This document shows, in pieces, positions 3,351 through 28,844 of a stretch of 29,805 nt of DNA. The stretch covers positions 1-29,805 of IMG/VR virus record IMGVR_UViG_3300025853_000443. One strand, written 5' to 3'. Position 1 is the first letter of the stretch. Each line of letters begins with the position of its first letter. The position numbers and the translations under genes were made by a program. Origin of the DNA: a virus. The notes under the pieces were generated by a model. The model was given only the letters and a program-made list of their open reading frames with translations. It searched no databases and had not been told where the DNA came from.

Positions 3351-3571
3351 TTAAATTATTTGAAGACGACTGGGGTGTTGATAACAGTCCAACAGACAAC
3401 ACAGAAATAACAACTACTATTTTATATTTTAGTGAAGAAGAATTAAAGTTGTTTAAAAGGCTATGTAAAAAAGGCATACAAATACTATATAAAGAAGAAT
3501 ACCAACAAAAGGGTAATTTAAGTGATTTTTTATTACACACTTTAAAAGAAAATTATGGCAAAGACATATAA
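3347..3571 (+). CDS. Hypothetical acidic protein
   Basis: A 74-residue protein with an acidic N-terminus and a helical middle (YFSEEELKLFKRLCKKGIQILY), ending in a segment like that of small phage accessory proteins. The start overlaps the exonuclease stop (ATGA) and the end overlaps the dioxygenase start by 17 nt. No family recognised. Confidence 0.6.
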   Translation: MIKLFEDDWGVDNSPTDNTEITTTILYFSEEELKLFKRLCKKGIQILYKEEYQQKGNLSDFLLHTLKENYGKDI

Positions 3572-6539: not shown

Positions 6540-6573
6540 TAAAATAAAGCAATAAGTACGTTATACTAATATG
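6540..6573 (+). promoter_or_regulatory. Putative phage late promoter 1 (TAAAA - 14 nt - CGTTATACTAATATG)
   Basis: TAAAA (6540-6544), a 14-nt spacer and CGTTATACTAATATG (6559-6573) ending in the start codon of the small terminase gene. The same arrangement occurs before four other late genes (8736, 15621, 17260 and 19463). The fixed spacing to the ATG suggests a promoter giving a leaderless transcript. CGTT is a common -10 core of ECF sigma factors, so the phage sigma factor is a candidate reader. Confidence 0.6.
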
Positions 6574-6933
6574 TACGATACCAAAGAACTTGAACGGAAA
6601 GCATTAGAAGCCATTACAGAGCATAAGTTGATGTTTATAGAACACGTTGTAGCTTATTTGCCTTGCGCTAAAAAAACCTTTTATGAGCATAATTTACACG
6701 AAAGTAACGCTATAAAAAGGGCAATAGAAGAAAATAGAACAAGCAAGAAGGTAGCACTACTTAATAACTGGATAAAAGAAACGTCTGCTCCTGTATTACA
6801 AATAGCTGCTATGAAAATGATAAGTAGCGATGAAGAAGCTCATAGACTTAATGGTACTAAGCGAGAGATAAAGCACGATACGAAACAAAAGAGTTTCAAA
6901 GTAGAAGTGATTGACAACAATACAGGTAAATAA
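6571..6933 (+). CDS. Terminase small subunit
   Basis: A 120-residue protein directly upstream of, and overlapping by 23 nt, the large terminase gene. It shows the pattern of small terminases in Bacteroidetes phages: an N-terminal helix (KELERKALEAITEHKLMFI), a helix-turn-helix-like segment (VVAYLPCAKKTFYEHNLHESNAIKRAIEEN), a central oligomerisation helix and a basic tail. It binds packaging sites on phage DNA and hands them to the large subunit. It is the first gene after late promoter motif 1. Confidence 0.75.
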   Translation: MYDTKELERKALEAITEHKLMFIEHVVAYLPCAKKTFYEHNLHESNAIKRAIEENRTSKKVALLNNWIKETSAPVLQIAAMKMISSDEEAHRLNGTKREIKHDTKQKSFKVEVIDNNTGK

Positions 6934-8062
6934 AGTATATAACCACCTAACCAACTCTAATAAAAAAATAACATTAGAGATAGGCGGTACAAGAAGCGGT
7001 AAGACCTACAACATACTGCTATGGATTATACTACACTACTGCCAACACAACGATAACAAAACCATTACTATATGTCGTAAGACGTTCCCTGCTGTTAGGG
7101 CAACAGTAATGAGGGACTTTATGGATATACTTAAACGTATGGACTTATACGATGAGCAGTACCATAATAAGTCAAACCACGAATACAAGTTAGATAGCAA
7201 CCTTATAGAGTTTATTAGTTTAGACCAACCACAAAAAGTAAGAGGGCGCAAAAGGGATTTACTGTTCTGTAATGAGATGAACGAGTTAGACTTTGAAGAC
7301 TGGCAGCAGTTGGTATTCAGAACAACAGACAAGATTATAGGCGATTTAAACCCATCAGATGAGTATCATTGGATATGGGAGAAGTTAGAAGCAAGAGAAG
7401 ACGTAGAAACCTATCAGACTACTTATTTAGATAATCCATTTTTAGATGATAGTATAATAAGCGAGATAGAACTACTAAAAGAAACAGATGATACTTATTG
7501 GCGTATATATGGACTTGGGGAAAGGGCAATATCTAAAGCAACTATATTTAAGTACACGGAGATTGATAGCATACCTGACGATGCACAGCTTGTGGCTTAT
7601 GGGATGGACTTTGGATTTAACGACCCTACTACATTTATTGCAACATACAAGAAAGACCATAATCTCTACTTTAAGGAACTGCTATATAGGTCTAAGATGA
7701 CAACAGAGGACATACACCAATACTTAAAAGGTGTTGAGGTAAACGGTATTACATACGCTGATAGTGCAAGACCTGAAATAATAGAACAGCTTAGAAGATA
7801 CGGACACAAAGTAATGAAGTCGTATAAAGGTAGCAACTCTGTATTAGCAGGGATAGACTTACTTAAACGCTACAAACTCCACGTAACAAAGGATAGCGAG
7901 AATATGATAAAAGAATTTAGAAGCTATAAGTGGAAAGAAGATAGAGCAGGTAGAATAACCAACGTACCCGAAGATGCATTTAACCACACACTTGATGCAG
8001 CACGTTACTCTTGTTACTCTATATTAAGTAAGCCTAACTTTGGTAAGTACTACATACATTAA
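6911..8062 (+). CDS. Terminase large subunit (packaging ATPase and nuclease)
   Basis: A 383-residue protein with Walker A GGTRSGKT, Walker B strand LLFCNEMNE, and the RNase H-like nuclease acids in AYGMDFGFNDPT, ITYADSARPEII and FNHTLDAARYS. It cuts concatemeric phage DNA and pumps it into proheads. No ATG is available before the Walker A motif. A stop (TGA) lies at 6908-6910, so the only normal start is TTG at 6911 (the frame continues TTIQVNKVYNHL). This start overlaps the small subunit gene. The length is normal for a compact terminase. Confidence 0.93.
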   Translation: MTTIQVNKVYNHLTNSNKKITLEIGGTRSGKTYNILLWIILHYCQHNDNKTITICRKTFPAVRATVMRDFMDILKRMDLYDEQYHNKSNHEYKLDSNLIEFISLDQPQKVRGRKRDLLFCNEMNELDFEDWQQLVFRTTDKIIGDLNPSDEYHWIWEKLEAREDVETYQTTYLDNPFLDDSIISEIELLKETDDTYWRIYGLGERAISKATIFKYTEIDSIPDDAQLVAYGMDFGFNDPTTFIATYKKDHNLYFKELLYRSKMTTEDIHQYLKGVEVNGITYADSARPEIIEQLRRYGHKVMKSYKGSNSVLAGIDLLKRYKLHVTKDSENMIKEFRSYKWKEDRAGRITNVPEDAFNHTLDAARYSCYSILSKPNFGKYYIH

Positions 8063-8080
8063 AAAAAAACTTTATAAACA

Positions 8081-8111
8081 TTTTGTAAATAAATATATTT
8101 GTGTATATTTG
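8081..8111 (+). promoter_or_regulatory. Host-type promoter (TTTTG - 18 nt - TATATTTG)
   Basis: TTTTG at 8081-8085 and TATATTTG at 8104-8111 match the Bacteroidetes -33/-7 boxes (TTG and TAnnTTTG) with a normal spacer. It lies between the terminase stop and a four-gene cassette that ends in a terminator, so the cassette can be transcribed separately from the late genes. Confidence 0.7.
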
Positions 8112-8131
8112 CTGTATAAATAACAAACATT

Positions 8132-8290
8132 ATGAGAACAGAGTACAAATACAATCCGATTTTAACAGTAGTAAATGGTGGTCAGTTTTATGACGTAGAG
8201 TATAGCGTGTGGAATAAAGCACCTGAAACTGTATCTTTTAGAACCTATGAAGAAGCTAAAACTTTTTTCAATACAATCCCTTTAAGCTAA
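8132..8290 (+). CDS. Small hypothetical protein of the inserted cassette
   Basis: A 52-residue protein starting 20 nt after the -7 box, with the A-rich leader ATAACAAACATT. It looks like a small alpha/beta protein (TVVNGGQFYDVEYSVWNKAPETVSF...YEEAKTFF), similar in shape to small phage host-takeover proteins, but no family is recognised. Confidence 0.6.
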   Translation: MRTEYKYNPILTVVNGGQFYDVEYSVWNKAPETVSFRTYEEAKTFFNTIPLS

Positions 8291-8294
8291 TACT

Positions 8295-8411
8295 ATGAAA
8301 CGTAAGATAGAAAACTTTATATTTGACTTTATCATTTACTTTGCAGCCTTTGGATGGGTTTGCTTATTTTTGCAGATATGCGCTCACGTAGATAAATGGA
8401 TAGGATTATGA
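8295..8411 (+). CDS. Small predicted membrane protein
   Basis: A 38-residue protein with a basic start (MKRKIEN) and one predicted membrane helix (about FIFDFIIYFAAFGWVCLFLQI), then a short polar end. The topology and size fit a small inner-membrane peptide such as a superinfection-exclusion or lysis accessory protein, which is inference. Its stop overlaps the next start (ATGA). Confidence 0.55.
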   Translation: MKRKIENFIFDFIIYFAAFGWVCLFLQICAHVDKWIGL

Positions 8412-8539
8412 ACATTATAGAAATAGGAAACAAGCATTACGAGTACAATGGAGATTTAGAAATAATGAGAGAGGTATATTGGAATGAAACCTTTAAGGAG
8501 TGGACACCTGTACTTTGGGAACAAGAAATGAGGATATGA
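8408..8539 (+). CDS. Small acidic hypothetical protein
   Basis: A 43-residue protein (NIIEIGNKHYEYNGDLEIMREVYWNET...) beginning in the ATGA overlap with the membrane peptide gene and ending in an ATGA overlap with the next gene. Several Trp residues in the C-terminal part. No family recognised. Confidence 0.55.
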   Translation: MNIIEIGNKHYEYNGDLEIMREVYWNETFKEWTPVLWEQEMRI

Positions 8540-8688
8540 AACTACATAAACTACATACAGGCGTTATAATAACACACATCGACATAGGAACAGGGATAAG
8601 CGTAAAAGCAAGGCATCCACAAGACAAAGATTATATTGTGTGGGATTTACTCCACAGAACACAAGAATTTTATAGAGGGCTTTTATAG
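8536..8688 (+). CDS. Small hypothetical protein, last gene of the cassette
   Basis: A 50-residue protein. I chose the start at 8536 because it overlaps the upstream stop as ATGA, like the other junctions of this cassette; a longer frame from 8500 would run 40 nt into the preceding gene. The stop lies within the loop of the terminator hairpin. No family recognised. Confidence 0.55.
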   Translation: MKLHKLHTGVIITHIDIGTGISVKARHPQDKDYIVWDLLHRTQEFYRGLL

Positions 8689-8699
8689 CCCTTTTTTTT
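8674..8699 (+). terminator. Rho-independent terminator after the four-gene cassette
   Basis: AGAGGGC (8674-8680) pairs with GCCCTTTT (8688-8695) across a short T/A loop and is followed by a T run to 8699. The hairpin overlaps the stop of the last cassette gene. Late promoter motif 2 begins 6 nt further on. Confidence 0.8.
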
Positions 8700-8704
8700 G
8701 TTTC

Positions 8705-8738
8705 TAAAAACTTCGTATATATACGTTATATTTATATG
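8705..8738 (+). promoter_or_regulatory. Putative phage late promoter 2 (TAAAA - 14 nt - CGTTATATTTATATG)
   Basis: TAAAA at 8705-8709, then 14 nt, then CGTTATATTTATATG (8724-8738) ending in the start codon at 8736. It sits directly after a terminator, where a new promoter is needed for the tail genes. This position is strong support that the motif is a promoter. Confidence 0.65.
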
Positions 8739-9377
8739 AAGTATGCACTAAACGTACCAACAAATCTAAATGACATTACATTAGGGCAATATCAGCAGTA
8801 TCTTAAATTACCCGAAGGACTGACTGAAAACCAAATAGCCCTAAAGATGATTACTATATTTTGCAATGTACCCGATAAGATTGCAAGGCACATTAAAGCA
8901 TCTGACATACAAACGATAGTTACAAAGCTATCTAAGATGTTTGAAGGCACTCCACCACTAAAAAGACGTTTTAAAATAGGCAACGTAGAGTATGGGTTTA
9001 TACCTAATCTTGATGAGATGAGTTTTGGGGAATATATAGACCTTGACACATACTTAGGCGATTGGGATAACATAGAACGTGCAATGGCGGTACTTTACAG
9101 ACCGATTAAGGGCAAATATGATACTTTGTATAACATAGAAGAATACGAAGTAAAAGATGCAACCGTATATAAGAATATGCCTTTAGATGCCGTACTTGGT
9201 TCTATTGTTTTTTTTTACAATTTAGGGAACGAGTTATGTCAGACTATGATAGCCTATTCACACAATCAGGGGGACTTACAGCAGAAAGCAACTTTGGAGC
9301 AAAATGGGGTTGGTATCAATCAATATACGGATTGGCTAACGGAGATATTACAAGATTTGAAAATATCACTAAATTAG
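8736..9377 (+). CDS. Tail assembly chaperone, G-like (short form)
   Basis: A 213-residue protein without enzyme motifs, mostly alpha helical. It overlaps the next frame (9236-9460) by 142 nt, and a run of nine T residues (9208-9216) lies just before the overlap. That is the layout of the lambda G/G-T tail chaperone pair, where a -1 slip on the run adds a second domain. It ends in ...INQYTDWLTEILQDLKISLN, which resembles the ends of such proteins in related phages. An alternative is that the run contains a sequencing error and the two frames form one gene. It is the first gene after a terminator and late promoter motif 2. Confidence 0.6.
   Translation: MKYALNVPTNLNDITLGQYQQYLKLPEGLTENQIALKMITIFCNVPDKIARHIKASDIQTIVTKLSKMFEGTPPLKRRFKIGNVEYGFIPNLDEMSFGEYIDLDTYLGDWDNIERAMAVLYRPIKGKYDTLYNIEEYEVKDATVYKNMPLDAVLGSIVFFYNLGNELCQTMIAYSHNQGDLQQKATLEQNGVGINQYTDWLTEILQDLKISLN
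9209..9215 (+). promoter_or_regulatory. Candidate -1 ribosomal frameshift site (T TTT TTT)
   Basis: Within the run T9 (9208-9216), the upstream frame reads GTT TTT TTT TAC. A slip of one base back gives T-TTT-TTT then TTA CAA TTT AGG, which leads into the frame of the 9236-9460 gene. That frame is open from 9173, with no stop between the run and the ATG at 9236. The predicted fusion is 160 + 81 = 241 residues. No obvious pseudoknot was found by eye. Confidence 0.55.
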
Positions 9378-9460
9378 GTGTACACGATTGTTTGTATGCG
9401 TTGGAGTTTATGAAAGAGAAAAACGAGTTAGAAGCGAAAAGAATTAAAAATGGCAAATAA
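9236..9460 (+). CDS. Tail assembly chaperone T-like domain (probably made as a frameshift fusion)
   Basis: The 74-residue frame contains SNFGAKWGWYQSIYGLANGDITRFENITKL, a segment I recognise from tail-assembly-type proteins of Bacteroidetes phages, followed by a basic helix (FMKEKNELEAKRIKNGK). An ATG exists at 9236, but 142 nt overlap with the previous gene and the open frame back to the T9 run suggest it is mainly made as the C-terminal part of a frameshift product. It overlaps the next gene start by 11 nt. Confidence 0.6.
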   Translation: MSDYDSLFTQSGGLTAESNFGAKWGWYQSIYGLANGDITRFENITKLGVHDCLYALEFMKEKNELEAKRIKNGK

Positions 9461-9920
9461 AGGAGTAAGAGGTTTTTACCTTATAACACAAACAATAAAA
9501 GACCAACTGTTACTTGATGAAAATGTAAATACAGTAACAACAGGCGACTTAACAGAAATAGATTTGTCTAAACAAACCATATTCCCACTATCACACCTAA
9601 TCATAAATAGCGTAACCGTACAGGAACAAGTACTTAATATAAACATTAGTTTACTATCTATGGATATTGTAGATGTAAGCAAAGATGAGGTTACGGATAT
9701 ATTTGTAGGCAATGATAACGAGCAAGATGTACTCAACACACAATTAGCAGTACAGAATAAGCTATTTGGTTTACTAAGACAGGGAACACTATACAACGAT
9801 AACTACCAATTAGTAGGCGACCCAAGCTGTGAGCCATTTTACGATAGGTTTGAAAACGAATTAGCAGGATGGTCTGCAACCTTTGACATACAAATACCAA
9901 ACGATATTTACTTATGTTAG
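9450..9920 (+). CDS. Tail terminator/completion-like protein
   Basis: A 156-residue protein, with an alpha/beta pattern like small tail-terminator or neck proteins: GFYLITQTIKDQLLLDENVNTVTTGDL at the N-terminus, VLNINISLLSMDIVD and AVQNKLFGLLRQG in the middle, and a terminal WSATFDIQIPNDIYLC strand. No exact family assigned; position between a chaperone pair and a gp10-like gene points to the tail end. It starts inside the end of the previous gene and its end overlaps the next by 7 nt. Confidence 0.5.
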   Translation: MANKGVRGFYLITQTIKDQLLLDENVNTVTTGDLTEIDLSKQTIFPLSHLIINSVTVQEQVLNINISLLSMDIVDVSKDEVTDIFVGNDNEQDVLNTQLAVQNKLFGLLRQGTLYNDNYQLVGDPSCEPFYDRFENELAGWSATFDIQIPNDIYLC

Positions 9921-10420
9921 ACAACACAGAGGACATATTAAAAGGGTTTGCCAAGCGTGTTATACAGCAGTCAAGAACACGTTTAACAAAGGGTAAGAAG
10001 AATAGTAGTAACGAACTATACAATAGTTTAAGATACGACCTTAAAACTTCTGCAAATGCCTTTATCCTAAACTTCTTTATGAAGGATTACGGTATATACC
10101 AAGACAAAGGTGTAAGTGGCACTAAAAAGAAGTATAAAACGCCCTTTAGTTATAGGGATAAGATGCCACCACCAAAAGCATTGGATAAATGGTTAGTTAG
10201 AAAAAACATTAAAGGAGTAAGAAACGCACAAGGGCAATTTATAAAGAGAAAGAGTTTACAATACCTTATAGCACGTAGCATATTTAGAAAGGGTATAAAA
10301 CCGAGCAATTTCTTTACAAAGAGTTTTGAACAAGCATTTGACAAACTACCAAAAGAGTTAGTGGATGCGTATAAATTAGATTTAGAAGAATTTTTAACAT
10401 CAGCAACAAGTGGCAACTAA
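9914..10420 (+). CDS. HK97 gp10-like tail completion protein
   Basis: A 168-residue basic protein. It has an N-terminal helix (ILKGFAKRVIQQSRTRLTKGKKNSSNELYNSLRYDLK), a central element YGIYQDKGVSGTKKKY found in gp10-like joining proteins, and the KMPPPKALDKWLV loop, ending with a helix. These proteins help join the tail to the head or finish the tail end. It overlaps the previous gene by 7 nt and the next by 11 nt. Confidence 0.55.
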   Translation: MLDNTEDILKGFAKRVIQQSRTRLTKGKKNSSNELYNSLRYDLKTSANAFILNFFMKDYGIYQDKGVSGTKKKYKTPFSYRDKMPPPKALDKWLVRKNIKGVRNAQGQFIKRKSLQYLIARSIFRKGIKPSNFFTKSFEQAFDKLPKELVDAYKLDLEEFLTSATSGN

Positions 10421-11561
10421 AATAAACGTAAGAAGCCCTTTTTATATAAAGGTTACACCATCTGCAAACACGATAACAAGTGTTCAGTTGGAATTATATA
10501 TTTATACAGGTGTAAAACTTACACCACCAACATCAAGCGAATTAAGATACACAATAACTAAAACACCAATAGGAAGTAACAATTATGTAGTATTTGAGAT
10601 TAGCGAACTTGTAAGGGACTATTTAGATATTGAGTTTGACGGAGAATACGACAGCCAAACAGTTTGGGCAAGACCTGATTTTACTATAACTACAACAGGT
10701 GGAACTGAAAACCCTGCTGAAATTGATTATATAGCTTTTGACGGTTATGGTTATTTTGAAGATGGCATCAATCCTGAACTTAGCAGAACGTACCTACAAA
10801 GTAATAACAAGATATTCAGACTTGACGACCAAAATGTAAGAGTGCCTGTATTTACAGAAGACACAGATAGTGTTTCTTTTTTATACAAAGGAGAAGTTAA
10901 AAGAGTACAGGCAGTAAGTAGCTCCACCAATACTAACGGACAAATAGACTACATCACAGTATCAGGAAGCGATAATACAGACACATACAAAGAACGTGTA
11001 TTAGCAGACGGTGGTACATTTGAGGATAACAGCCTTTTAGATGCGTTTTTAGACAGTATTGATGTAGGATTGGTAGATGAACTATATATAAACTCCGATA
11101 GTGGCACAGAAGTGCTTAAAATAGTTACAGAGCCTTGTACTAAGTATGAGCCAATAAAAATAACCTTTGTAAATAAGTTTGGAGCATTACAGGATATTTG
11201 GTTTAGCCTTAAAAGCACAGAAAGCCTAAATACAACAGGCGAAACGTATAAGGCAAACGTAGTGGACTTTGGAACGCTAACATACGCAACATACAAGCCA
11301 CAAGTAGCACAGTACAATAAATTAGGAAAAGAAAGCATTACACTAAACACTAACTATTTAAGTGAAGATTACAACGAAGTAATTAAACAGCTTATGATGA
11401 GTGAACAAGTATGGCTTACCAAACTAACAGACACAGAATTAGTATTGGCTGTTATTCCTAAGACACAAAGCGTAACATACAAAACAAGCCTAAACGATAG
11501 ACTTGTACAATACACCATTGACTTTGAGTATGCCTTTGATAAAATTAACACGGTAAGATAG
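10410..11561 (+). CDS. Tail structural protein (beta-rich)
   Basis: A 383-residue protein, beta-strand rich, with no enzyme motif. It starts at GTG (10410), overlapping the upstream stop by 11 nt; the frame then reads ATKINVRSPFYIKVTP. The pattern (NVRSPFYIKV..., repeated I-T-V-T strands, a long extended C-terminus) is typical of tail or distal-tail proteins in Bacteroidetes phages. Its place just before the large tail-tip gene fits. It ends in TAGTG overlapping the next start. Confidence 0.5.
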   Translation: MATKINVRSPFYIKVTPSANTITSVQLELYIYTGVKLTPPTSSELRYTITKTPIGSNNYVVFEISELVRDYLDIEFDGEYDSQTVWARPDFTITTTGGTENPAEIDYIAFDGYGYFEDGINPELSRTYLQSNNKIFRLDDQNVRVPVFTEDTDSVSFLYKGEVKRVQAVSSSTNTNGQIDYITVSGSDNTDTYKERVLADGGTFEDNSLLDAFLDSIDVGLVDELYINSDSGTEVLKIVTEPCTKYEPIKITFVNKFGALQDIWFSLKSTESLNTTGETYKANVVDFGTLTYATYKPQVAQYNKLGKESITLNTNYLSEDYNEVIKQLMMSEQVWLTKLTDTELVLAVIPKTQSVTYKTSLNDRLVQYTIDFEYAFDKINTVR

Positions 11562-13732
11562 TGGTTATACAATTATACATAGAAGGACAAAGGCTAGAAC
11601 TTTTTAAGGATGAAAGTGTTACAATAACAGACAGCATCCAAAATGTAAAAGATATAGGTTCTATATTTACAGCCTTTAGTCAATCTTTTAATGTACCAGC
11701 GAGTAAGACTAATAATAAAATTTTTAAGCATTATTATAATTACGATATTGACATTGCGTTTTCTTTTAATGCTAATGATTTAGTATCAGCAACAATTGAA
11801 TTAAATAGTTTAACTTTTAGAAAAGGTTTTATAGGACTTGATGGTGTTACATTAAAAAACAATAAAGCGCACTCGTATAAGATTACATTCTTTGGAGAAA
11901 CAGTAGATTTAAAAACAAAACTAAAAGAAACTAAACTAAGTACAGTATTTCAAGGTGTTACTACTTATGACCACGAGTACGGAGTATCAACTGTAAAAAC
12001 AGGATTAGAAAGTAGTTTAGCAAGTGGAGCAATACGCTATCCCTTAATATCACATACTGAAAGATTATTTTTTGATAGCGGTACACATACTGCTGATGAC
12101 CGTAATTTACATTATGATACAGGAGGTGGAGGTAGTGGTTCACATAATCACGGGATAAGATATAATGATATTAAACCCGCTATTAAATTAAGTACTATTG
12201 TAGACGAGATAGAAAGCTATACAGGCTTGACTTTTACAAGTGGAGCAAGTGATGACTTTTTTGACGAAACTAATAATCCTTTATGGGGTACTTTATATTT
12301 GTGGTTAAGTAGAGTAAAAGGCGCACTAGGCTTAAATGTAACAGGTACAGCAGTTGTAGATATGCCAATTACAGGCTTTGATTTTTCTAGTGCAAGTCCT
12401 AATCAATGGACACCTGCCTTACAGGGTGGCAATCCAGCTGTATCTCCTTATTCTTCAATGACAATTTTATCAGGCAGTCAAACAGAGGGTATATGGACTA
12501 TAAGACCACAAGCTAGTTTTTTAGGTAGCCCATCATATCAATACTACACTACTTTTATATTAACAAGTACATCACAATACACAATGATTATTGAAGATGT
12601 TACAAGCACACCGTTTACAGTAGCCTCAATAACAGGAACAGGTACACTTTCATTAATTAATGTATTTGTAGGTACAAGCAATCCTTATGGTCAAATAAGA
12701 AAAATAAGATACAGGGTAACAAGTGAAGACCCTGCTATAACATTTACACCTACAATAAATTTTAGGTATCAAGTATTTAGTGGGGGTACTGTTACAAATT
12801 ACGATACACAAATTACAGGTAGCGCAATAGAGCCTAACGGTGCTGTTAGTAATATAGTAGTATCAGACCAAATGCCTGATTTAAAAGTTATTGATTTTCT
12901 TACTGGCTTATTTAAGATGTTTAACCTTACAGCCTTCGTACAAGACGATGGTAAGATTAAGGTAATGACGTTAGATAATTTTTATAGCGCAGGAAATTCT
13001 TACGATGTAAGCGAATTTATAGACGTAAATGAAAGCAATGTAAATTTTGCCATACCTTACCAAGAGATAGCCTTTAGATTTAAAAAACCAAATACATTTT
13101 TAGGTATAAACTTTAGTGAGATTAACAACAAAGTTTTTGCCGACTTAGAAAGTACAACAGCATCTAATCCAGATGTACAAACAACAAATAGAGGTGGTAA
13201 GTATGTAGTGCAATTGCCTTTTGGTAAAATGATTTACGAAAGACTTAATGATTTGGCTAATAATAGTCAAAGTTTAATGCAATACGGTTACTGTACTGAT
13301 AAAGACCAAAACCCAATAAACATAGACCCCCTTATTTTAAATATAACAAATGAAACTTTAACAGTAGGGAATTATTTAAGTTTTTACAATGGCATAAGTA
13401 CAGGCACAGCAGCAGGATTAACTACATATAATAGACCATCTAATACGTATGGTACAAGTCAATCTTTAAATTTTGGTGAAGAAGTTGATGAGTATACTGG
13501 TTTAGTAGAAGATGATAGCTTATTTGAAAACTATTATAAAAATTATATTGTAGATACTTTTAATGCTAAAAGAAGGCTAGTAAAAGTAAAAGCATATTTG
13601 CCATTAAGGATATTATTAAACTATAAGCTTAATGATGTATTTATTATAAATGGTAGGGAGTATATTATAAACAGCGTAAACACAAACCTACTAACAGGCG
13701 AAAGCAACTTAGAATTATTAAACATAGTATAA
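11561..13732 (+). CDS. Large tail-tip/baseplate-type protein
   Basis: A 723-residue protein with a GTG start overlapping the previous stop by one base. The N-terminal region (QLYIEGQRLELFKDESVTITDSIQNVKDIGSIFTAFSQSFNVPAS) and the C-terminal region (MPDLKVIDFLTGLFKMFNLTAFVQDDGKIKV..., then RLVKVKAYLPLRILLNYKLNDVFIINGREYIINSVNTNLLTGESNLELL) resemble tail-hub/distal tail proteins that bind the baseplate. A glycine-rich loop (GGGGSGSHNHG) separates two structural regions, and the middle part (about 270-420) looks like an inserted beta domain. Long size and position before the tape measure support a tail-tip role. Exact family not assigned. Confidence 0.6.
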   Translation: MVIQLYIEGQRLELFKDESVTITDSIQNVKDIGSIFTAFSQSFNVPASKTNNKIFKHYYNYDIDIAFSFNANDLVSATIELNSLTFRKGFIGLDGVTLKNNKAHSYKITFFGETVDLKTKLKETKLSTVFQGVTTYDHEYGVSTVKTGLESSLASGAIRYPLISHTERLFFDSGTHTADDRNLHYDTGGGGSGSHNHGIRYNDIKPAIKLSTIVDEIESYTGLTFTSGASDDFFDETNNPLWGTLYLWLSRVKGALGLNVTGTAVVDMPITGFDFSSASPNQWTPALQGGNPAVSPYSSMTILSGSQTEGIWTIRPQASFLGSPSYQYYTTFILTSTSQYTMIIEDVTSTPFTVASITGTGTLSLINVFVGTSNPYGQIRKIRYRVTSEDPAITFTPTINFRYQVFSGGTVTNYDTQITGSAIEPNGAVSNIVVSDQMPDLKVIDFLTGLFKMFNLTAFVQDDGKIKVMTLDNFYSAGNSYDVSEFIDVNESNVNFAIPYQEIAFRFKKPNTFLGINFSEINNKVFADLESTTASNPDVQTTNRGGKYVVQLPFGKMIYERLNDLANNSQSLMQYGYCTDKDQNPINIDPLILNITNETLTVGNYLSFYNGISTGTAAGLTTYNRPSNTYGTSQSLNFGEEVDEYTGLVEDDSLFENYYKNYIVDTFNAKRRLVKVKAYLPLRILLNYKLNDVFIINGREYIINSVNTNLLTGESNLELLNIV

Positions 13733-13875
13733 TGCTACAAAATATATTAGAGTTATTGAAGTACGCAAATGGCGAAACAGAAAACATACGCATAGCACAA
13801 GGTAAGTATGAATTACCAAGTGGGTTTATGGGTGCAGGTAAAAAGATTAAAAGAGAAGCGGGATGGAAAAAATAG
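13732..13875 (+). CDS. Small conserved protein before the tape measure
   Basis: A 47-residue basic protein (ENIRIAQGKYELPSGFMGAGKKIKREAGWKK) of a type I recall from Bacteroidetes-phage tail regions. It starts in the TAATG overlap with the tail-tip stop. Its last 13 nt overlap the tape measure start in the -1 frame at an A6 stretch. Function unknown; a tail assembly role is possible. Confidence 0.65.
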   Translation: MLQNILELLKYANGETENIRIAQGKYELPSGFMGAGKKIKREAGWKK

Positions 13876-15590
13876 TATTACAATTAGATGCAGACACTAC
13901 ACAAGCTATAAAGGGTATTAAGAAAGTAGATGAAAGCATACAAAACCTAAATGATGACCTTGTTACCACAGGAGAGGGCTTTGAGGGTATGGAAACAGGT
14001 GCTAAGAAAGCATCAAGGGGTATTAAAGGTATTGGCACAGCTTTAAAAGCAGCAGGTATTGGTTTAGCTATTGCTGCCTTTGCTAAACTTAAAGAGATAT
14101 TTGAGCAAAACCAACAAGTGGCAGATGCGTTTAACACAGCATTTGAATTTGTGTCTATTGCTTTTAATGACTTTGCTAATTTTGTAATAAACAATAGCGG
14201 TAAGATTACAGGCTTCTTTAAAGCTATATTTGAAGACCCTAAACAATCACTACAAGACTTTGCGGATGCTTTTAAAAGAAACATACAAGAAAGGTTTGAA
14301 AGCTATTTAGACACTTTAGGATATTTAGCAAGTGCTGTTAAAAAAGTATTTAGTGGAGATTTTAAAGGTGCTTTAGAAGATGTTAAAAGCGCAGGAAAAG
14401 AAAGTATTGATGTACTAACAGGCGTTAATAACTCATTTGACAAAGGAACAGAAGCAGTAAACAAAATAGTTAAGGGTACTTCTGATTATGTTAAAGAAAC
14501 AGGCAAAGCAGCACAAGCTAACGTACAATTAGAAAAGACAGCACGATTAGCAGAAACAGCCAATCAAGGTCTTATTGAAAAATACGACAGACAAGCAGAA
14601 CAGTTACGCCAAACAAGAGATGACGAAAGCAAGAGTTTTGAAGAACGTATAAAAGCTAATGAAGAATTGGGTAAACTTTTAGACGAGCAGGAAAAAACTA
14701 TGATGGCTAATGCAGATGCAAGAGTAGCCCAAGCAGCAGCGGAATTAGCTAAAAACAAAGATAATGTAGACTTACAAATAGCATACCAAGAAGCCTTAAA
14801 CGAACAGGCAGCTATTGAAGCACAAATTACAGGGTTTAGAAGTGAGCAACAAACAAACGCTAACTCACTATTAAGAGAGCAGAAAGACCTACAAAATGAA
14901 TTAGCACTTATAGGAAAGTCAGAACGTGAGATAGAACGATTAGAACTGCAACAAGACTATGATGCTAAAAAGGCACTTATAGAACGTGAGATAACAGATG
15001 AAGCACAAAAGAATGAAATGTTATTAGCGTTAAAAAAAGACTTTGATGACAAAATAAATGGCTTAAACGAACAAGCTGCTGATAATGAGATTACTTGGGC
15101 TAAAATGACACAAGACCAAAAACTTGCTTATGCTCAACAAGGTTTAGCAGGGTTGGCAGCTAACTTAGGAAAAGAAACAGCAGCAGGTAAAGCAGCGGCT
15201 ATATCAAGTGCTTTAATATCTACATATCAAGGTGCGCAAGATAGTTATGCTTCACTTGCAAAAATACCTGTTGTAGGTCCTGCTTTAGGTTTTGCAGCCG
15301 CAGCAGCAGCAACAGTAGCGGGTTTAGCAAACGTTAAAGCTATAACATCTACAAAAACACCAAACACAGCAGGGTTAGGTGGTGGTGCGCCAAGCGTTAA
15401 TGTGTCAAGACCAAGTACACCGTCTGCTCAACCACCTGCATTTAACATTGTGGGAGCAGGAGCAGGAAACCAATTAGCAGAAACTATTGCAGGACAAAGT
15501 CAAAGACCTATAAAAGCGTTTGTAACATCACAAGACGTAACAACAGCACAGAGTTTAGAACGTAATATAGTAGAGGGCGCATCAATTTAG
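13863..15590 (+). CDS. Tape-measure protein
   Basis: A 575-residue protein with the usual composition: an N-terminal polar region, an early hydrophobic segment (GTALKAAGIGLAIAAF, about 58-73), a long coiled coil rich in A, E, Q and K in the centre (about 215-400), and a hydrophobic Ala/Gly-rich region (about 455-495, GPALGFAAAAAATVAGLANV), with a Pro/Ser-rich tail. It would set tail length; at the usual ~1.5 angstrom per residue this predicts a tail of about 85 nm. No lysozyme or peptidase domain is visible. The start ATG 13863 overlaps the preceding gene by 13 nt. Unusually, the head genes follow it rather than precede it. Confidence 0.85.
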   Translation: MEKIVLQLDADTTQAIKGIKKVDESIQNLNDDLVTTGEGFEGMETGAKKASRGIKGIGTALKAAGIGLAIAAFAKLKEIFEQNQQVADAFNTAFEFVSIAFNDFANFVINNSGKITGFFKAIFEDPKQSLQDFADAFKRNIQERFESYLDTLGYLASAVKKVFSGDFKGALEDVKSAGKESIDVLTGVNNSFDKGTEAVNKIVKGTSDYVKETGKAAQANVQLEKTARLAETANQGLIEKYDRQAEQLRQTRDDESKSFEERIKANEELGKLLDEQEKTMMANADARVAQAAAELAKNKDNVDLQIAYQEALNEQAAIEAQITGFRSEQQTNANSLLREQKDLQNELALIGKSEREIERLELQQDYDAKKALIEREITDEAQKNEMLLALKKDFDDKINGLNEQAADNEITWAKMTQDQKLAYAQQGLAGLAANLGKETAAGKAAAISSALISTYQGAQDSYASLAKIPVVGPALGFAAAAAATVAGLANVKAITSTKTPNTAGLGGGAPSVNVSRPSTPSAQPPAFNIVGAGAGNQLAETIAGQSQRPIKAFVTSQDVTTAQSLERNIVEGASI

Positions 15591-15623
15591 TAAAATTAAA
15601 AATAAACACGTTATATTAATATG
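15591..15623 (+). promoter_or_regulatory. Putative phage late promoter 3 (TAAAA - 13 nt - CGTTATATTAATATG)
   Basis: TAAAA (15591-15595) directly after the tape measure stop, a 13-nt spacer, then CGTTATATTAATATG (15609-15623), where the last ATG is the protease start. It matches the other sites with the same spacing to the start codon. Confidence 0.6.
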
Positions 15624-16550
15624 AGAATTGTAGAACTTATACTTGACGAGGATAGTGTAGCAGGAATAGAGGCTATATCAATAGTAGAAAACCCTGCCAT
15701 TGAAGAAGATTTTATAGCACTAAACTCACAAGAAATACAATTAGCAGAAGTAGACAAAGACAAGCAAATACTTGTAGGTGCGTTATTAGTCCCTAATAAG
15801 CCCATATACAGACGTAAAGGCGATGATGAGTATTATATATATTTCTCTAAAGATACTATCCGTAAGGCTTCAGAAATGTACTTAATTAAAGGCAACCAAA
15901 ACAACAGTACTTTAGAACACCATTACAAACTATCAGGGCTATCACTTGTTGAGAGTTGGATAGTAGAAGATGAGGTACACGATAAGTCAAGAAAGTACAA
16001 TATGGAAGTGCCTGTTGGTACTTGGATGGGAGTAGTAAAAGTAAACAATTCAGAGGTTTGGAATGACTTTGTAAAGACAGGTAAAGTAAAAGGGTTTTCA
16101 ATAGAGGGCTACTTTGTAGATAAAATGGAACGCCCTAACGAGCCTATAAACGACTTTGAAGAAGAAGAAGCAGAGGAGATGTTGTCTTATATCCGTAGAA
16201 TTGTTAGAGATGACAAAAGGTATAAGAATGGCAAAAAAGAAGAATTAGAAAGCTACTCTGACTATCCTGATGCTGTAAAAAACAATGCACAAAGAGGCAT
16301 AGACCTAAACAAAGAAGTAAACAATAAATGTGCAACAGACGTAGGTAAGATAAGAGCGCAACAATTAGCACAGGGCAAACCTATAAGCATAAACACTATA
16401 AAACGTATGTACTCTTATTTATCAAGAGCAGAGGAGTATTACGATGAAGGAGATACAAAGGCTTGTGGTACTATATCTTATTTATTGTGGGGTGGCAAAG
16501 CTGCTAAACGTTGGGCTGAAAGTAAACTAAAAGAATTAGACCAACTGTAA
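15621..16550 (+). CDS. Prohead protease, XkdF-like, with extra C-terminal domain
   Basis: A 309-residue protein. Residues 1-170 resemble XkdF-type phage serine proteases: strands VELILDEDSVAGIEAISIVENPAIEEDF and QILVGALLVPNKPIYR, a candidate catalytic His in STLEHHYK (100/101), ESWIVED, and the Ser in VKGFSIEGYF (160). The C-terminal part (about 213-309; SDYPDAVKNNAQRGIDLN..., RMYSYLSRAEEYY, GTISYLLWGGKAAKRWAESKL) is an extra domain that I recall attached to other phage proteins. It would process scaffold or capsid inside the prohead. It begins at late promoter motif 3 and its stop overlaps the next start (TAATG). Confidence 0.75.
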   Translation: MRIVELILDEDSVAGIEAISIVENPAIEEDFIALNSQEIQLAEVDKDKQILVGALLVPNKPIYRRKGDDEYYIYFSKDTIRKASEMYLIKGNQNNSTLEHHYKLSGLSLVESWIVEDEVHDKSRKYNMEVPVGTWMGVVKVNNSEVWNDFVKTGKVKGFSIEGYFVDKMERPNEPINDFEEEEAEEMLSYIRRIVRDDKRYKNGKKEELESYSDYPDAVKNNAQRGIDLNKEVNNKCATDVGKIRAQQLAQGKPISINTIKRMYSYLSRAEEYYDEGDTKACGTISYLLWGGKAAKRWAESKLKELDQL

Positions 16551-16681
16551 TGGCTAAAAGAATTGAAGTAGCGCATATAGTAAAACCCAAAGTAAAAAGA
16601 AAGGGTGTACACGCTAAAACAAAAATGTCAAGTTTAAAAGGTAGTAAACTATATAAGAAAAAAAACAGAGGGCAGGGATGA
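16550..16681 (+). CDS. Small basic protein (KGVHAKTK motif)
   Basis: A 43-residue, strongly basic protein (VKPKVKRKGVHAKTKMSSLK...). Proteins with VKRKGVHAKT recur between head genes in Bacteroidetes phages. It may bind nucleic acid, which is inference from charge only. It begins in the TAATG overlap with the protease stop and its own stop overlaps the next start as ATGA. Confidence 0.7.
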   Translation: MAKRIEVAHIVKPKVKRKGVHAKTKMSSLKGSKLYKKKNRGQG

Positions 16682-16818
16682 GAGATATTAAATACTTAAC
16701 ACCATCACATACAAGTCCTAAAGGTAGCAGACGTGGTTGTTTGTGTGCTGAAAAAAACACTTACAGTATAAAGTGCTGTAAAGGTAAATTAATAAATCAA
16801 GGTATAGGTAAAATATAA
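16678..16818 (+). CDS. Small Cys-rich protein (RGCLC...KCC)
   Basis: A 46-residue protein with four Cys residues in GCLC (21/23) and KCC (33/34), a possible zinc site. The pattern RGCLC..KNTYS.KCC...L..QGIG is familiar from head-region genes of Bacteroidetes phages. It overlaps the preceding gene as ATGA. Function unknown. Confidence 0.7.
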   Translation: MRDIKYLTPSHTSPKGSRRGCLCAEKNTYSIKCCKGKLINQGIGKI

Positions 16819-16821
16819 ATT

Positions 16822-17223
16822 ATGAATAAAAAAGTAATGGCTAAAGTAGCCAAGATTAACAAAGAAGAACTGTCTAAAGTAGAATTGAGTATTGTTGGGG
16901 ATGCTAACAAGGCTGTTAGAGATTTAAAAGGAAAGGTAAAAACCCTTAAAGACGTTCAGGATAGATTTTCAAAAGCTACTATGGACGTTATTAGAGCCAA
17001 GCAACAAGCAGAAAAGGCAGCAAGTTTAAAAAGTCCTTTTGTTGGTGGTTTTAGTATCAATCCCTATCAGGTTATGGATGACATAGAAAGAGCAGCTAAA
17101 GAATTAGGTGTGGATATTAAAAGAATTGATGGATATGGGGAACTAAATGACCTTATACAACAATATGAATTACAACTCAAAAAAGCAGAAGAAGGAAAAC
17201 AAAGGCTTAATAAGGAGTTGTAA
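16822..17223 (+). CDS. Coiled-coil protein of the head region
   Basis: A 133-residue lysine-rich protein with predicted coiled coils at about 12-65 and 105-133. A central PFVGGFSINPYQVMDDIERAA segment is Gly/Pro-containing. Its place between the protease and scaffold genes suggests an assembly role, but no family is recognised. It starts 3 nt after the preceding stop. Confidence 0.65.
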   Translation: MNKKVMAKVAKINKEELSKVELSIVGDANKAVRDLKGKVKTLKDVQDRFSKATMDVIRAKQQAEKAASLKSPFVGGFSINPYQVMDDIERAAKELGVDIKRIDGYGELNDLIQQYELQLKKAEEGKQRLNKEL

Positions 17224-17228
17224 AAATG

Positions 17229-17262
17229 TAAAATAGTTAATTAAAATAGTTATAGTTATATG
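17229..17262 (+). promoter_or_regulatory. Putative phage late promoter 4, degenerate (TAAAA - 14 nt - AGTTATAGTTATATG)
   Basis: TAAAA (17229-17233), 14 nt, then AGTTATAGTTATATG (17248-17262), the last ATG being the scaffold start. It differs from the other four at the first base of CGTT and at one inner position, but keeps the box order and spacing. Weaker than the others. Confidence 0.45.
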
Positions 17263-17847
17263 AAAGCAACTGAAATGTTAAACAAGATTAAAACCTTTCT
17301 TGGAGAAGAAACTGCTGATATTGTAGAAAATATAGAGCAGACCGAGAAAGTAGAGTTAGCACAAGCTAAACTTGAAAACGGAACTGTACTTGAAGCAGAA
17401 GCGTTTGAAGCAGGAAACGAAATTTTTATTGTTACAGAAGACGAAAGAGTAGCAGTACCTGTTGGCGAGTACGAAATGGAAGACGGTAAAATTCTTATCG
17501 TAGCAGAAGAAGGTCTTATTGGCGAGATTAAAGATGCGGAAGCAGAAGAAGTAGAAGCTGAAAAAGAAGAAATGGGATACGTTACCAAAGAAGAACTTGC
17601 CGAAGCTGTATCTGAAATTAAGGCAATGATTGAGGACTTAAAGAAAGAAGAAATGAGCGAGGAAGTAGAAACTACTAACGTAGAAGAAACTGAATTGTCA
17701 GAAGATTTGAAAGAGGAACTTTCACAACCTGCTGCCGAGCCTATTGCTCATAATCCTGAACAAAAACAAAATAACATTAATGTGAAGTTTGCACAAAACA
17801 GAAAGCAGACCACACTTGATAGAGTATTATCAAAAATTAACAACTAA
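17260..17847 (+). CDS. Scaffold-like capsid assembly protein
   Basis: A 195-residue, very acidic protein. It has a beta-rich middle (VLEAEAFEAGNEIFIVTEDERVAVPVGEYEMEDGKILIVAEEG), then a glutamate-rich coiled coil (about 88-150), and a basic C-terminal end (NRKQTTLDRVLSKINN) that may bind the capsid protein. Acidic, helical proteins right before the major capsid gene are typical scaffolds. The protease upstream would remove it from proheads. Confidence 0.65.
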   Translation: MKATEMLNKIKTFLGEETADIVENIEQTEKVELAQAKLENGTVLEAEAFEAGNEIFIVTEDERVAVPVGEYEMEDGKILIVAEEGLIGEIKDAEAEEVEAEKEEMGYVTKEELAEAVSEIKAMIEDLKKEEMSEEVETTNVEETELSEDLKEELSQPAAEPIAHNPEQKQNNINVKFAQNRKQTTLDRVLSKINN

Positions 17848-17861
17848 ATAAATAAATAAAA

Positions 17862-18782
17862 ATGGCTAATCCAACAATTACAGGTTCATCTTATGCAGGA
17901 GAGTTTGCAGGTAAATACCTTGCTGCTGCCTTATTGAGTGCCGACACTTTAGATAGCGGTACAATCACTATCTTACCTAATGTAAAGTATAAAGCTGCTA
18001 TGAAAGTAGGTTCGTTTGCTAATTTAGTACGTTCTGCTGATTGCGACTTTGACAGCTCTACATCAACAATGACACTTACTGAAAAAGTGCTTACTCCAAC
18101 TGAATTGCAAGTAAACTTACAGATTTGTAAGAAACAGCTACACGCAGATTGGGAAGCTGCTCAAATGGGCTTTAGTGCTTTTGACGAATTGCCTCCACTA
18201 TTCTCTGACTTTGTTATTGCACAGGTAGCAGCAGAAGTAGCAAACGCTACTGAAACTTCTATTTGGCAAGGTAGCGCAGGAGAGGGTTCTTTTGATGGTT
18301 TCGATACACTTTTAACTGCTGACGGTGGTGCAGATGTAACTGCTACAACTGTTGATAGTACAAACGTAGTTGCACAACTTGGTGCTATCGTAGATGCTAT
18401 CCCTACAACAGTTTACGGAAAAGAGGATTTGAACCTTTATGTATCTTCTAACATTGCTCGTGCTTATGTACGTGCTTTAGGTGGATTTGTTGCTACTATT
18501 GGTGCAAACGGTGTAGATAACAAAGGTACTACTTGGTACAATGGCGGACAGCTTTCTTTTGAAGGTATCAATATGGTAGTAGCTAAAGGACTTGCTAACA
18601 ACACAGCAGTAGCTGCTCAAAAATCTAACTTATTCTTTGGTACAGGTCTATTAGATGACCGTAACGAGGTTAAAGTTATTGATATGGCTGACCTTGACGG
18701 TTCACAAAATGTACGTGTAGTAATGCGCTATACAGCAGGTGTACAGTACGGAGTAAGAGGGGATATTGTTCTTTACTCATAA
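17862..18782 (+). CDS. Major capsid protein (HK97 fold)
   Basis: A 306-residue protein with a compact composition (Ala, Thr, Val, Gly-rich) that fits a capsid shell protein. Landmarks include the N-terminal helix EFAGKYLAAALLSADTL, the A-domain-like LFSDFVIAQVAAEVANATETSIWQG, and the C-terminal VVMRYTAGVQYGVRGDIVLYS. It is preceded by an A-rich leader (AAATAAATAAATAAAA) suited to strong translation in Bacteroidetes and followed at once by a terminator. Codons such as TTAGGT, GCT and CGT are used more evenly than in nearby genes, consistent with high expression. Confidence 0.8.
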   Translation: MANPTITGSSYAGEFAGKYLAAALLSADTLDSGTITILPNVKYKAAMKVGSFANLVRSADCDFDSSTSTMTLTEKVLTPTELQVNLQICKKQLHADWEAAQMGFSAFDELPPLFSDFVIAQVAAEVANATETSIWQGSAGEGSFDGFDTLLTADGGADVTATTVDSTNVVAQLGAIVDAIPTTVYGKEDLNLYVSSNIARAYVRALGGFVATIGANGVDNKGTTWYNGGQLSFEGINMVVAKGLANNTAVAAQKSNLFFGTGLLDDRNEVKVIDMADLDGSQNVRVVMRYTAGVQYGVRGDIVLYS

Positions 18783-18795
18783 TAATAACTAACAT

Positions 18796-18836
18796 AAAAG
18801 GGGGTGGGATAGGTAAATGCCTACCTGCCCTTTTTT
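18796..18836 (+). terminator. Rho-independent terminator after the capsid gene
   Basis: AAAAGGG (18796-18802) pairs with CCCTTTT (18828-18834), with an inner stem AGGTA/TACCT around AATGCC, followed by a T run. The downstream gene starts 16 nt later and shows no late promoter motif, so some read-through is likely. Confidence 0.75.
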
Positions 18837-18851
18837 AATAAAAATATAAAT

Positions 18852-19376
18852 ATGGCTTGTGCAGTAACTAAAGGGCGTTCACTCCCTTGTAAAAATTCAG
18901 TAGGTGGATTAAAAAACATCTACATTCTTGACTATTCTTCGACAATAGCAGATTTGACAGACACAAGTGGTACTATTACACTACCTACTGATGGAAGTGC
19001 GGAGTTTTTTAAGTATGAGATTAAAGGAAATTCATCTTTAGAAACATCTGTAACATCAAGTAGAGAAAACGGTACTACTTTTTATGAAACTACACTAAAT
19101 GTAACATTTACCTATCTTGATGTAGCAACACAAGAAGAAATTAAGCTATTAAACGCAGGTAGAGCGCATTATGTAGTTGAGGACTATAATGGCAACTATT
19201 TCTTAATTGGTAAGGAACACGGTGCAGAGATTACAGGTGGAACGATTGTAACAGGCGCAGCAATGGGCGACCTGTCAGGGTTTACACTTGTAGCTACTGC
19301 ACAGGAAACAGCACCGCCTTTCTTTGCGACTGCTCCTGACGTAAGTGCTACTACACCGATTACCCCTGATGCATAA
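18852..19376 (+). CDS. Tail tube protein (probable)
   Basis: A 174-residue beta-rich protein. The start MACAVTKGRSLPCKNSVGGLKNIYI, the middle FKYEIKGNSSLETSVTSS...GTTFYETTLNVTFTYLD and a strand-rich C-terminus (VVEDYNGNYFLIGKEHGAEITGG) resemble major tail tube proteins of Bacteroidetes phages. It lies between two terminators after the capsid gene, consistent with a strongly expressed structural gene. A different virion protein is possible. Confidence 0.6.
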   Translation: MACAVTKGRSLPCKNSVGGLKNIYILDYSSTIADLTDTSGTITLPTDGSAEFFKYEIKGNSSLETSVTSSRENGTTFYETTLNVTFTYLDVATQEEIKLLNAGRAHYVVEDYNGNYFLIGKEHGAEITGGTIVTGAAMGDLSGFTLVATAQETAPPFFATAPDVSATTPITPDA

Positions 19377-19392
19377 TTAGGTAGTCTATTAT

Positions 19393-19423
19393 AAAGGGGG
19401 AGCTATATGCTCCCTTTTTTTTT
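19393..19423 (+). terminator. Rho-independent terminator after the tail tube gene
   Basis: AAAGGGGGAGC pairs with GCTCCCTTTTT across TATAT, followed by a T run up to 19423. It is one of the strongest hairpins in the window. Late promoter motif 5 begins 10 nt downstream. Confidence 0.85.
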
Positions 19424-19432
19424 GCCTTATAG

Positions 19433-19465
19433 TAAATATTCATATTTGTACGTTATACTTATATG
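19433..19465 (+). promoter_or_regulatory. Putative phage late promoter 5 (TAAAT - 13 nt - CGTTATACTTATATG)
   Basis: TAAAT (19433-19437), 13 nt, then CGTTATACTTATATG (19451-19465), ending in the start codon at 19463. It follows a terminator by 10 nt, as promoter 2 does. A TATTTG lies at 19443-19448 but has no matching upstream box. Confidence 0.6.
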
Positions 19466-19822
19466 AAGATTGTATCAGTTTCACAAACGCAGACATTTAC
19501 GTTTATACCTCGTGTATTTGCTAACGAAACGCTTACATACGTTGTAACTGACGAACAAACAAATAAGTCAGAAACTATAACAGCTTCTACAAGTACAAGT
19601 GGTAATTACTTAACAGCTAATATGACGTTTGGCAGTAGTAATGCACCATTTAGAGAAGCACATTTTTATACTTTAGAAGTAACCAAATCAGACGGTACTT
19701 TAGTGTATAGAGATAAGTTATTTTGCACAGACCAAACACCTGTAACACAAAGCAGGTACGATGTGAACGATAATGTTTACGAAACAAACGACACAGTCGA
19801 TAACGATTATATAGTATTATGA
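19463..19822 (+). CDS. Virion structural protein, small beta-rich
   Basis: A 119-residue protein with alternating strands (TQTFTFIPRVFANETLTYVVTD..., FYTLEVTKSDGTLVYRDKLFCTD) that looks like an immunoglobulin-like or small beta-sandwich structural protein. It ends with an acidic tail. Its stop overlaps the portal start (ATGA), so it is co-translated with the portal. Similar small proteins precede the portal or fibre genes in related phages; exact role unknown. Confidence 0.55.
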   Translation: MKIVSVSQTQTFTFIPRVFANETLTYVVTDEQTNKSETITASTSTSGNYLTANMTFGSSNAPFREAHFYTLEVTKSDGTLVYRDKLFCTDQTPVTQSRYDVNDNVYETNDTVDNDYIVL

Positions 19823-28166: not shown

Positions 28167-28170
28167 ACAT

Positions 28171-28840: not shown

Positions 28841-28844
28841 CCAT

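Follow-up and report, generated by a model that had tools for sequence, protein, structure and literature searches.

Motif copies and sigma factor gene in the window

The virus record IMGVR_UViG_3300025853_000443 (29,805 bases, analysed at full length and referred to as the window) harbours five copies of a bipartite motif, each fused to the start codon of a gene, and in addition a gene for a sigma factor of the extracytoplasmic function (ECF) type. A direct repeat of ~100 nt is shared by both ends (5–108 and 29703–29805; the copies differ by one missing base), so that the record probably represents the near-complete genome of a phage of flavobacterial type. A simple gene caller assigns 42 genes to the + strand and 6 to the – strand. 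The part of the genome that holds the non-structural genes, among them those for sigma and helicase, contains none of the five motif copies.

Each copy consists of an upstream TAAAA element (TAAAT in one copy; starting at 6540, 8705, 15591, 17229 and 19433, + strand), a gap of 14, 14, 13, 14 and 13 nt, respectively, and a box (starting at 6559, 8724, 15609, 17248 and 19451, + strand), in full agreement with an original prediction that had proposed phage-specific late promoters at these positions. The first candidate promoter (6540–6573, TAAAA-14-CGTTATACTAAT) precedes a terminase small subunit-like gene (6571–6933), named from its position only (no family match), and the terminase large subunit gene (6911–8062; Terminase_3, E=2.9e-22). 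The second (8705–8738, TAAAA-14-CGTTATATTTAT) opens the tail gene block (8736–15590), which includes the tape measure gene (13863–15590; matches to PHROG tail length tape measure) and further genes matching families of unknown function. The third (15591–15623, TAAAA-13-CGTTATATTAAT) precedes an XkdF-like prohead protease gene (15621–16550; PF14550, E=6.7e-16), and the fourth (17229–17262, TAAAA-14-AGTTATAGTTAT) a block (17260–18782) of a scaffold-like gene (17260–17847) and a probable major capsid gene (17862–18782), their roles being assigned from gene order, since the PHROG matches of the block (24921 and 11320) are of unknown function. The fifth (19433–19465, TAAAT-13-CGTTATACTTAT) opens a block (19463–21603) formed by a gene for 119 amino acids (aa) and the portal gene (19819–21603; PHROG portal, E=3.4e-127). 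All these genes are encoded on the + strand, and sites orthologous to candidate promoters 1, 2, 3 and 5 exist in related phages. The fourth copy carries AGTTATA in place of CGTTATA (17248–17262); this A is kept in six of seven orthologous starts compared and may be functional, e.g., by providing a weaker promoter for scaffold and capsid.

The claims that every copy ends in the ATG of a gene (frames of 119–309 codons) and that the copies stand at the starts of gene blocks (terminase, tape-measure, protease, scaffold/capsid and portal) hold true; 30–86 nt separate the preceding stop codon from the motif gene. Two copies (boxes at 8724 and 19451) indeed sit directly behind terminator-like hairpins with a T-run (8674–8694 upstream of promoter 2 and 19393–19419 upstream of promoter 5, + strand). 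Hairpins of this kind are no more numerous in the region than chance would give (nine found versus 7.1 expected).

With at most one mismatch, CGTTATANTNATATG is found five times in the window, exclusively on the + strand, as compared to a mean of 0.09 in shuffled sequence and none of 100 dinucleotide shuffles reaching five. At up to three mismatches no excess is apparent (22 found versus 21.3 expected), meaning that the signal is confined to near-exact copies; the latter search alone had suggested a chance origin, which the dinucleotide shuffles rule out. The pattern named with the original prediction as refuting it, i.e., as many copies within genes or on the minus strand, is not seen when strand and distance to ATG are tested. 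The TAAAA part alone is weak in an AT-rich genome, yet it is backed by the conservation of AAA in relatives. The TAnnTTTG –7 box of the Bacteroidota housekeeping factor sigmaA is absent from all five sites, as had been stated, ruling out a host sigmaA promoter there. The proposed phage-specific late promoters are supported by their position ahead of structural gene blocks, their strand bias, a geometry that hardly varies, their conservation even in distant relatives and the phage sigma gene found in both records chosen by neither sigma nor motif (G023 and G024, see below). The original prediction had missed the sigma gene, the ECF-like CGT in the box and the possible consequence of leaderless transcripts.

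The sigma gene (818–1315, + strand, 165 aa), the proposed reader of the five promoters, matches the ECF profile TIGR02937 over residues 13–165 (E=2.2e-9), and Pfam Sigma70_r2 (PF04542) with E=1.2e-4 and 22.2 bits, i.e., below the cut-off of 24 bits. Since its TIGR02937 score (37.1 bits) also misses the curated NCBIfam cut-off (42.9 bits), the protein is at best a diverged member of this family. All 23 aligned relatives match Sigma70_r2 (E≤1) as well as TIGR02937 (E≤0.1), and only one of them matches Sigma70_r4_2. Region 2 and a C-terminal helix-turn-helix are both conserved in this alignment, corresponding to the ECF architecture of region 2 joined to a region 4 helix-turn-helix without regions 1 and 3. 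The four best sequence matches in the PDB are sigma factors, albeit weak ones (E about 0.04). In an AlphaFold model (mean pLDDT 83, pTM 0.45), for which the best Foldseek rows are ECF sigma factors in transcription complexes, predicted domain 2 superposes on Bartonella RpoE (2.3 Å over 74 residues) and predicted domain 4 (residues 101–165) on region 4 of E. coli sigmaE (2.5 Å over 65 residues, Z 8.4); the Z values of 8–10 obtained for the model are not decisive alone, as holds for helical folds below about 13. Root mean square deviations over the full length are large (8–17 Å in most rows), as would result from a different relative placement of the two domains. Profile and fold thus agree on an ECF-like protein, for which binding to core polymerase and promoter-specific initiation are predicted. 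A second, diverged sigma-like gene is located directly downstream of the phage sigma gene in two related genomes (G002:C1:17263–17766 and G006:C1:18828–19331; E about 2e-21).

Geometry of the proposed promoters and sigma factor in related phages

The sigma profile and the pattern CGTTATA-N5-ATG were run against 50 records in total. Twenty-two had been chosen by their sigma gene (22 of the 24 contigs of at least 20 kb among 80 of 371 sigma relatives; L011 and L050 not included). Each of them holds the motif, in 1–5 copies, amounting to 70 sites on the strand of the sigma gene (possibly 69, since a terminal repeat in G004 may account for both its first and its last site) versus none on the opposite strand and two for a reversed-pattern control. 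Two further records chosen by their terminase, i.e., by neither sigma nor motif (G023 and G024), both contain the sigma gene (E=1.4e-28 and 1.6e-31) and three and two motif sites, respectively, all five on the sigma strand. The remaining 26 records (at least 15.9 kb) were chosen by a motif-like DNA pattern from among the matches listed that had not already been found; seven of them contain the sigma gene and 19 do not. In 12 of these 19 there is only one site, in line with chance matches in a huge collection, and in seven there are at least two. The distance between box and ATG is kept in records with a sigma of 41–52 % identity. Likewise, orthologous promoters keep box and distance even where the proteins are as little as 36–60 % identical, except for the starts of the terminase small gene in L124, L130 and L132 and two other starts in L132, which lack a fused box.

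Seven control phages (of Flavobacterium, Cellulophaga, Polaribacter, Riemerella and Bacteroides; sequences minus the last 12–3,664 bases) contain no sigma relative at E≤0.01 (best 0.049, second round), CGTTATA-N5-ATG only twice in 320,000 bases, and CGTTAnTA-N4-ATG three times. A tblastn search with the window sigma revealed no related sigma in named phages. The single match in bacterial genomes, on a 3.5-kb contig of a Campylobacterales metagenome-assembled genome without the box, is not informative.

The shape of the promoter was derived from 27 genomes (the window and 26 fetched; 765,334 bases, G028 being covered to 20,000 of 20,645 bases). Sigma-positive records number 31, eight of which (G003, G004, G007, G009, G016, G021, G025 and G043) were not fetched whole. 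On the sigma strand, CGTTATA occurs 161 times, 87 of these with an ATG exactly 5 nt on and 26 at other offsets of 0–9 nt; the opposite strand has 56 copies, one with ATG at 5 nt and four at other offsets. All 87 fused sites open frames of at least 72 codons, and AAA is found at the right upstream distance in 85 of them, versus three of the 56 opposite-strand copies. Upstream of the fused sites, the gap to the previous frame measures 28–40 nt in 34 cases, which is just enough room for the promoter, is longer in 48 and shorter in five. Among 85 distinct sites (after removal of repeated sites and of two AGTTATA sites with short frames of 27 and 57 codons), positions –17 to –15, counted from the C of the box, hold an A in 80, 81 and 80 cases, respectively, followed by an A/T-rich, poorly conserved spacer. 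The base directly before the ATG, left free in the search, is T in 83 of the 85 sites, and the base after it is A in 79. In a comparison of 95 motif starts with 805 other starts, T before ATG reaches 98 versus 42 % and A after ATG 94 versus 52 %. No GTG or TTG replaces the ATG at the box distance, the single GTG match lying inside a frame of 253 codons. The promoters thus combine a CGT in the –10 region with an AAA upstream element at near-fixed spacing, as is typical of ECF-type promoters, and are placed like phage late promoters before structural gene blocks on the coding strand only. The classical ECF –35 element GGAAC is not present at these promoters, which carry AAA only.

The sole named phages with a portal match (38 %) are Nonlabens phage P12024S (host Persicivirga sp. 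IMCC12024) and its sister P12024L, reached by portal and tail-region proteins rather than by the window sigma. The annotated gp33 of P12024S contains sigma region 2 (25.2 bits, above the cut-off of 24 bits) and is only distantly similar to the window sigma (E=4e-7). In front of six annotated P12024S genes (starts at 179, 3031, 5412, 23961, 25201 and 26802), CGTTA[AC]TA lies exactly 12 nt from the ATG, together with an A-rich AAAC element, and a seventh gene has CGTTAATT at a distance of 11 nt. Two more occurrences 12 nt ahead of an ATG, another copy on the + strand and the only opposite-strand CGTTA at that distance, belong to frames of 2 and 12 codons, respectively. The same arrangement, with CGTTA[ACGT]TA as box, is kept in L314–L316, L318 and L319 (sigma 48–92 % identical) and was not found in the 4.7-kb contig L317. 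Thus, in the P12024S group a diverged sigma accompanies a one-base shift of the box, while the distance to the ATG is unchanged.

Proposed transcription start and competing explanations

The five motifs quite probably represent late promoters that are read by the phage ECF-type sigma and give rise to leaderless transcripts. Early genes, including that of the sigma, would probably be read by host polymerase from TAnnTTTG-type promoters. The phage sigma may then bind host core polymerase and direct it to [T/C]AAA(A), about 14 nt and CGTTATA, the CGT of the latter resembling the –10 signature of ECF-type promoters. As 12 nt separate the C of the box from the A of the ATG, the usual ECF start distance would place the first transcript base on this A (T at –1, A at +1), so that the virion operons at the five sites would begin as leaderless, AUG-first mRNAs. 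The sequence itself shows the motif, its strand, the 12-nt distance, the conservation and the sigma gene, whereas reading by this sigma, late timing and leaderless starts are inferred. Recognition by the phage sigma is likely, as are leaderless late mRNAs resulting from it at the five sites. It also appears reasonably probable that a widespread lineage of Bacteroidota phages runs most virion operons in this way, with a phage ECF sigma and promoters merged with the start codon; the minority of promoters with leaders restricts this to "most" rather than "all" operons.

Background for both elements is available from other bacteria. ECF-type promoters of Flavobacterium carry a CGT box, with F. psychrophilum possessing seven ECF sigma factors (PMC9723704), and leaderless genes have been recognised in other bacteria by TA-type boxes located about 12 bp ahead of their starts (PMC3160421). 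In E. coli, AUG supports leaderless translation much better than other codons do (PMC9031893), in keeping with the lack of alternative start codons at the motif sites.

Several observations weigh against this interpretation. In F. johnsoniae, 87 % of the transcripts with a probable promoter have leaders of more than 10 nt (PMC6847099), hence leaderless phage mRNA would depart from the habit of the host. An unbiased search for 6-mers at a fixed distance before the ATG ranks the box or an overlapping word first in 20 of the 27 genomes, but not in G017, G018, G022, G023, G024, G028 and G035; five of these seven have at most two fused sites, i.e., fewer than the three required as minimum. Moreover, three control phages contain words with scores of 10^-5.5 to 10^-6.3, on a par with some of the 20. 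Since motif sites are largely orthologous, the 85 sites are not independent events. Three short contigs (G032, G047 and G048) have 3–4 sites on one strand and no sigma gene; they are probably truncated, as their first site lies 2.6, 3.4 and 0.5 kb, respectively, from the contig start in reading direction, whereas in sigma-bearing records the sigma gene is located about 2.4–11 kb upstream of the first downstream site. Finally, fusion to the start codon is not universal, the bipartite element of some relatives being followed by ATG 13–44 nt past the C, and in G010 (L053:13058) an inserted methyltransferase-like gene (so labelled from reading its translation) separates the terminase promoter from the terminase small gene and has its ATG 10 nt after the C, which represents the clearest exception to the proposed start.

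These exceptions bear on the alternative that promoters and sigma are as proposed and transcription starts not at the A of the ATG but a few bases up- or downstream of it, leaving a very short leader, or that another translation start is used. Besides the 10 nt of G010 and the 11 nt at one P12024S site, distances from C to ATG at unfused boxes are 13 nt (G008 and G022), 14 nt (G032), 16 and 19 nt (G036), 21 and 29 nt (G024), 25 nt (G023), 33 nt (G035), 34 nt (G042 and G047) and 44 nt (G002 and G006); other unfused boxes with AAA have no start codon near. On the other hand, 12 nt are kept at 87 sites with a near-invariant T before the ATG. A pyrimidine at –1 and a purine at +1 form the preferred start context, which this T fits. 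A shifted start is therefore regarded as unlikely, though conceivable. The 12-nt fusion is a rule rather than a law, predominant and not universal, with all five window sites fused. The promoter element itself appears to work, or at least to be kept, apart from the ATG, chiefly in more distant lineages. In two of the contigs concerned (G042:C1, oriented position 14359, and G047:C1, 1938), a palindrome (TTGATTAATCAA) is located between the unfused box and the ATG, possibly an operator or a hairpin behind the promoter.

Alternatively, the motif could serve a host ECF sigma or another factor, the phage sigma fulfilling a different role. The seven ECF sigma factors of F. psychrophilum and their CGT-box promoters (PMC9723704) would allow for this. 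However, sigma and motif occur together on the same strand in 24 of 24 records chosen by sigma or terminase, the seven control phages without a sigma match share only two motif copies in all, and the diverged sigma of the P12024S group is paired with a shifted box. A host factor as reader is accordingly considered quite improbable, and recognition by the phage sigma remains preferred.

A role of the motif in translation initiation rather than transcription would agree with its ending in ATG, its richness in A/T and an unusually A-rich second codon. It is nevertheless very unlikely, as the conserved AAA element lies about 28 nt before the ATG, and boxes with AAA at the right distance also exist without fused ATG, with a strong preference for the sigma strand (26 of 74 unfused copies versus 3 of 55 on the opposite strand), on the grounds of which a translation-only signal was rejected. 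Furthermore, determinants of translation in F. johnsoniae are A at –3, –6, –12 and –13 and not CGTTATA (PMC6847099). In 14 distinct contigs (24 loci), the box ahead of the terminase small gene is intact, but AAG takes the place of the ATG behind it, and an inherited insert of 31–32 nt (e.g., L106:1591–1637) separates box and start codon; five loci checked have no in-frame ATG, GTG or TTG between the two. The insert folds as a hairpin, and its first base coincides with the predicted +1. It may reflect one or two events, most of the 14 contigs being close relatives. Promoters with leaders, these contigs included, indicate that the box is a promoter and not a translation signal.

A site for another DNA-binding protein (repressor, origin or phage RNA polymerase) or a chance pattern can practically be dismissed in view of strict orientation, fixed ATG distance and the shuffling results. 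With respect to a phage RNA polymerase as promoter reader, no such family is among the matches of 33 window proteins to Pfam and/or PHROGs; the scan is not exhaustive (22159, 25289, 26480 and small open reading frames lie outside it).

Relation to known systems and further features of the window

As proposed here for the ECF-type sigma of the window, phage T4 uses a sigma factor of its own (gp55) for late genes. T4 late promoters consist of a TATAAATA box only and, unlike those of the window, are activated by the sliding clamp. A further parallel is provided by phiEco32, 7-11 and Kuravirus phages, in which a phage ECF-type sigma likewise has its own middle and late promoters before structural genes and part of the other genes depend on host promoters (PMC4331800, PMC7881722). 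These phages differ from the window in the box (TAATGTATA or TGATGT with TATA) and in their enterobacterial hosts, and the terms "leaderless" and "start codon" are absent from the main text of PMC4331800. The ECF-type SM6 promoters of F. psychrophilum belong to chromosomal genes, e.g., for components of type IX secretion, and fusion to ATG is not described in the available text of PMC9723704. In Deinococcus and Actinobacteria, a TANNNT box that precedes the start by about 12 bp has been taken as a sign of leaderless mRNA (PMC3160421), similar to the fixed distance found here; these boxes are sigma-70-like and of the host, whereas the window has an ECF-type box linked to a phage sigma. A paper on phage AR9 notes in passing that leaderless transcripts are common in phages (PMC5312081), and lambda cI is a known case (PMC9031893), but the available text of either paper describes no unit of promoter and start codon that genes share under the control of a phage sigma. 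Nonlabens phages P12024S/L (Inhavirus) resemble the window in having their own sigma region 2 gene and boxes 12 nt before annotated starts, and differ by the CGTTAnTA box and the distant sigma.

Phage ECF sigma factors with dedicated late promoters (phiEco32-like phages) and leaderless phage mRNA as such are therefore already known. The differences lie in the box, the host phylum and the merger of promoter and start codon across a wide phage lineage, this merger being the new part; a phage sigma with start codon-fused promoters is not described in the parts of the literature searched. If the interpretation is correct, one 12-nt rule would set the start of both transcription and translation in a phylum with normally leadered mRNAs, and sigma gene plus target motif would define a late-gene switch for Bacteroidota phages. 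It would also allow late operons of uncultured phages to be located by a simple rule, supply an orthogonal sigma/promoter pair for a phylum in which genetic tools are few, and offer a natural test of leaderless translation by ribosomes not using Shine-Dalgarno signals. The cultured relative P12024S makes the proposal directly testable.

Candidate early promoters with a host-type –7 box are present on the + strand at 28159–28173 (TATCTTTG), 4 nt before the ATG of the gene at 28171, and at 28833–28847 (TATATTTG), 4 nt before the ATG at 28845 of a 43-codon frame. The TATCTTTG arrangement recurs in G001, G002, G005 and G006. With 20 copies of TAHHTTTG on the + strand and 10 on the – strand of the window, many copies of this box are due to chance. 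As sigmaA often starts 4–5 nt past its box (PMC6847099), the genes at 28171 and 28845 may be leaderless, too.

No tRNA genes were found in the window. In keeping with the terminal repeat, a DnaB-like gene is split between both ends of the record. Genes for a TET/JBP dioxygenase (3555–4427; PF12851, E=3.9e-27) and a TET-associated glycosyltransferase (4885–5640; PF20691, E=4.1e-24) likely form a cassette for DNA base hypermodification.

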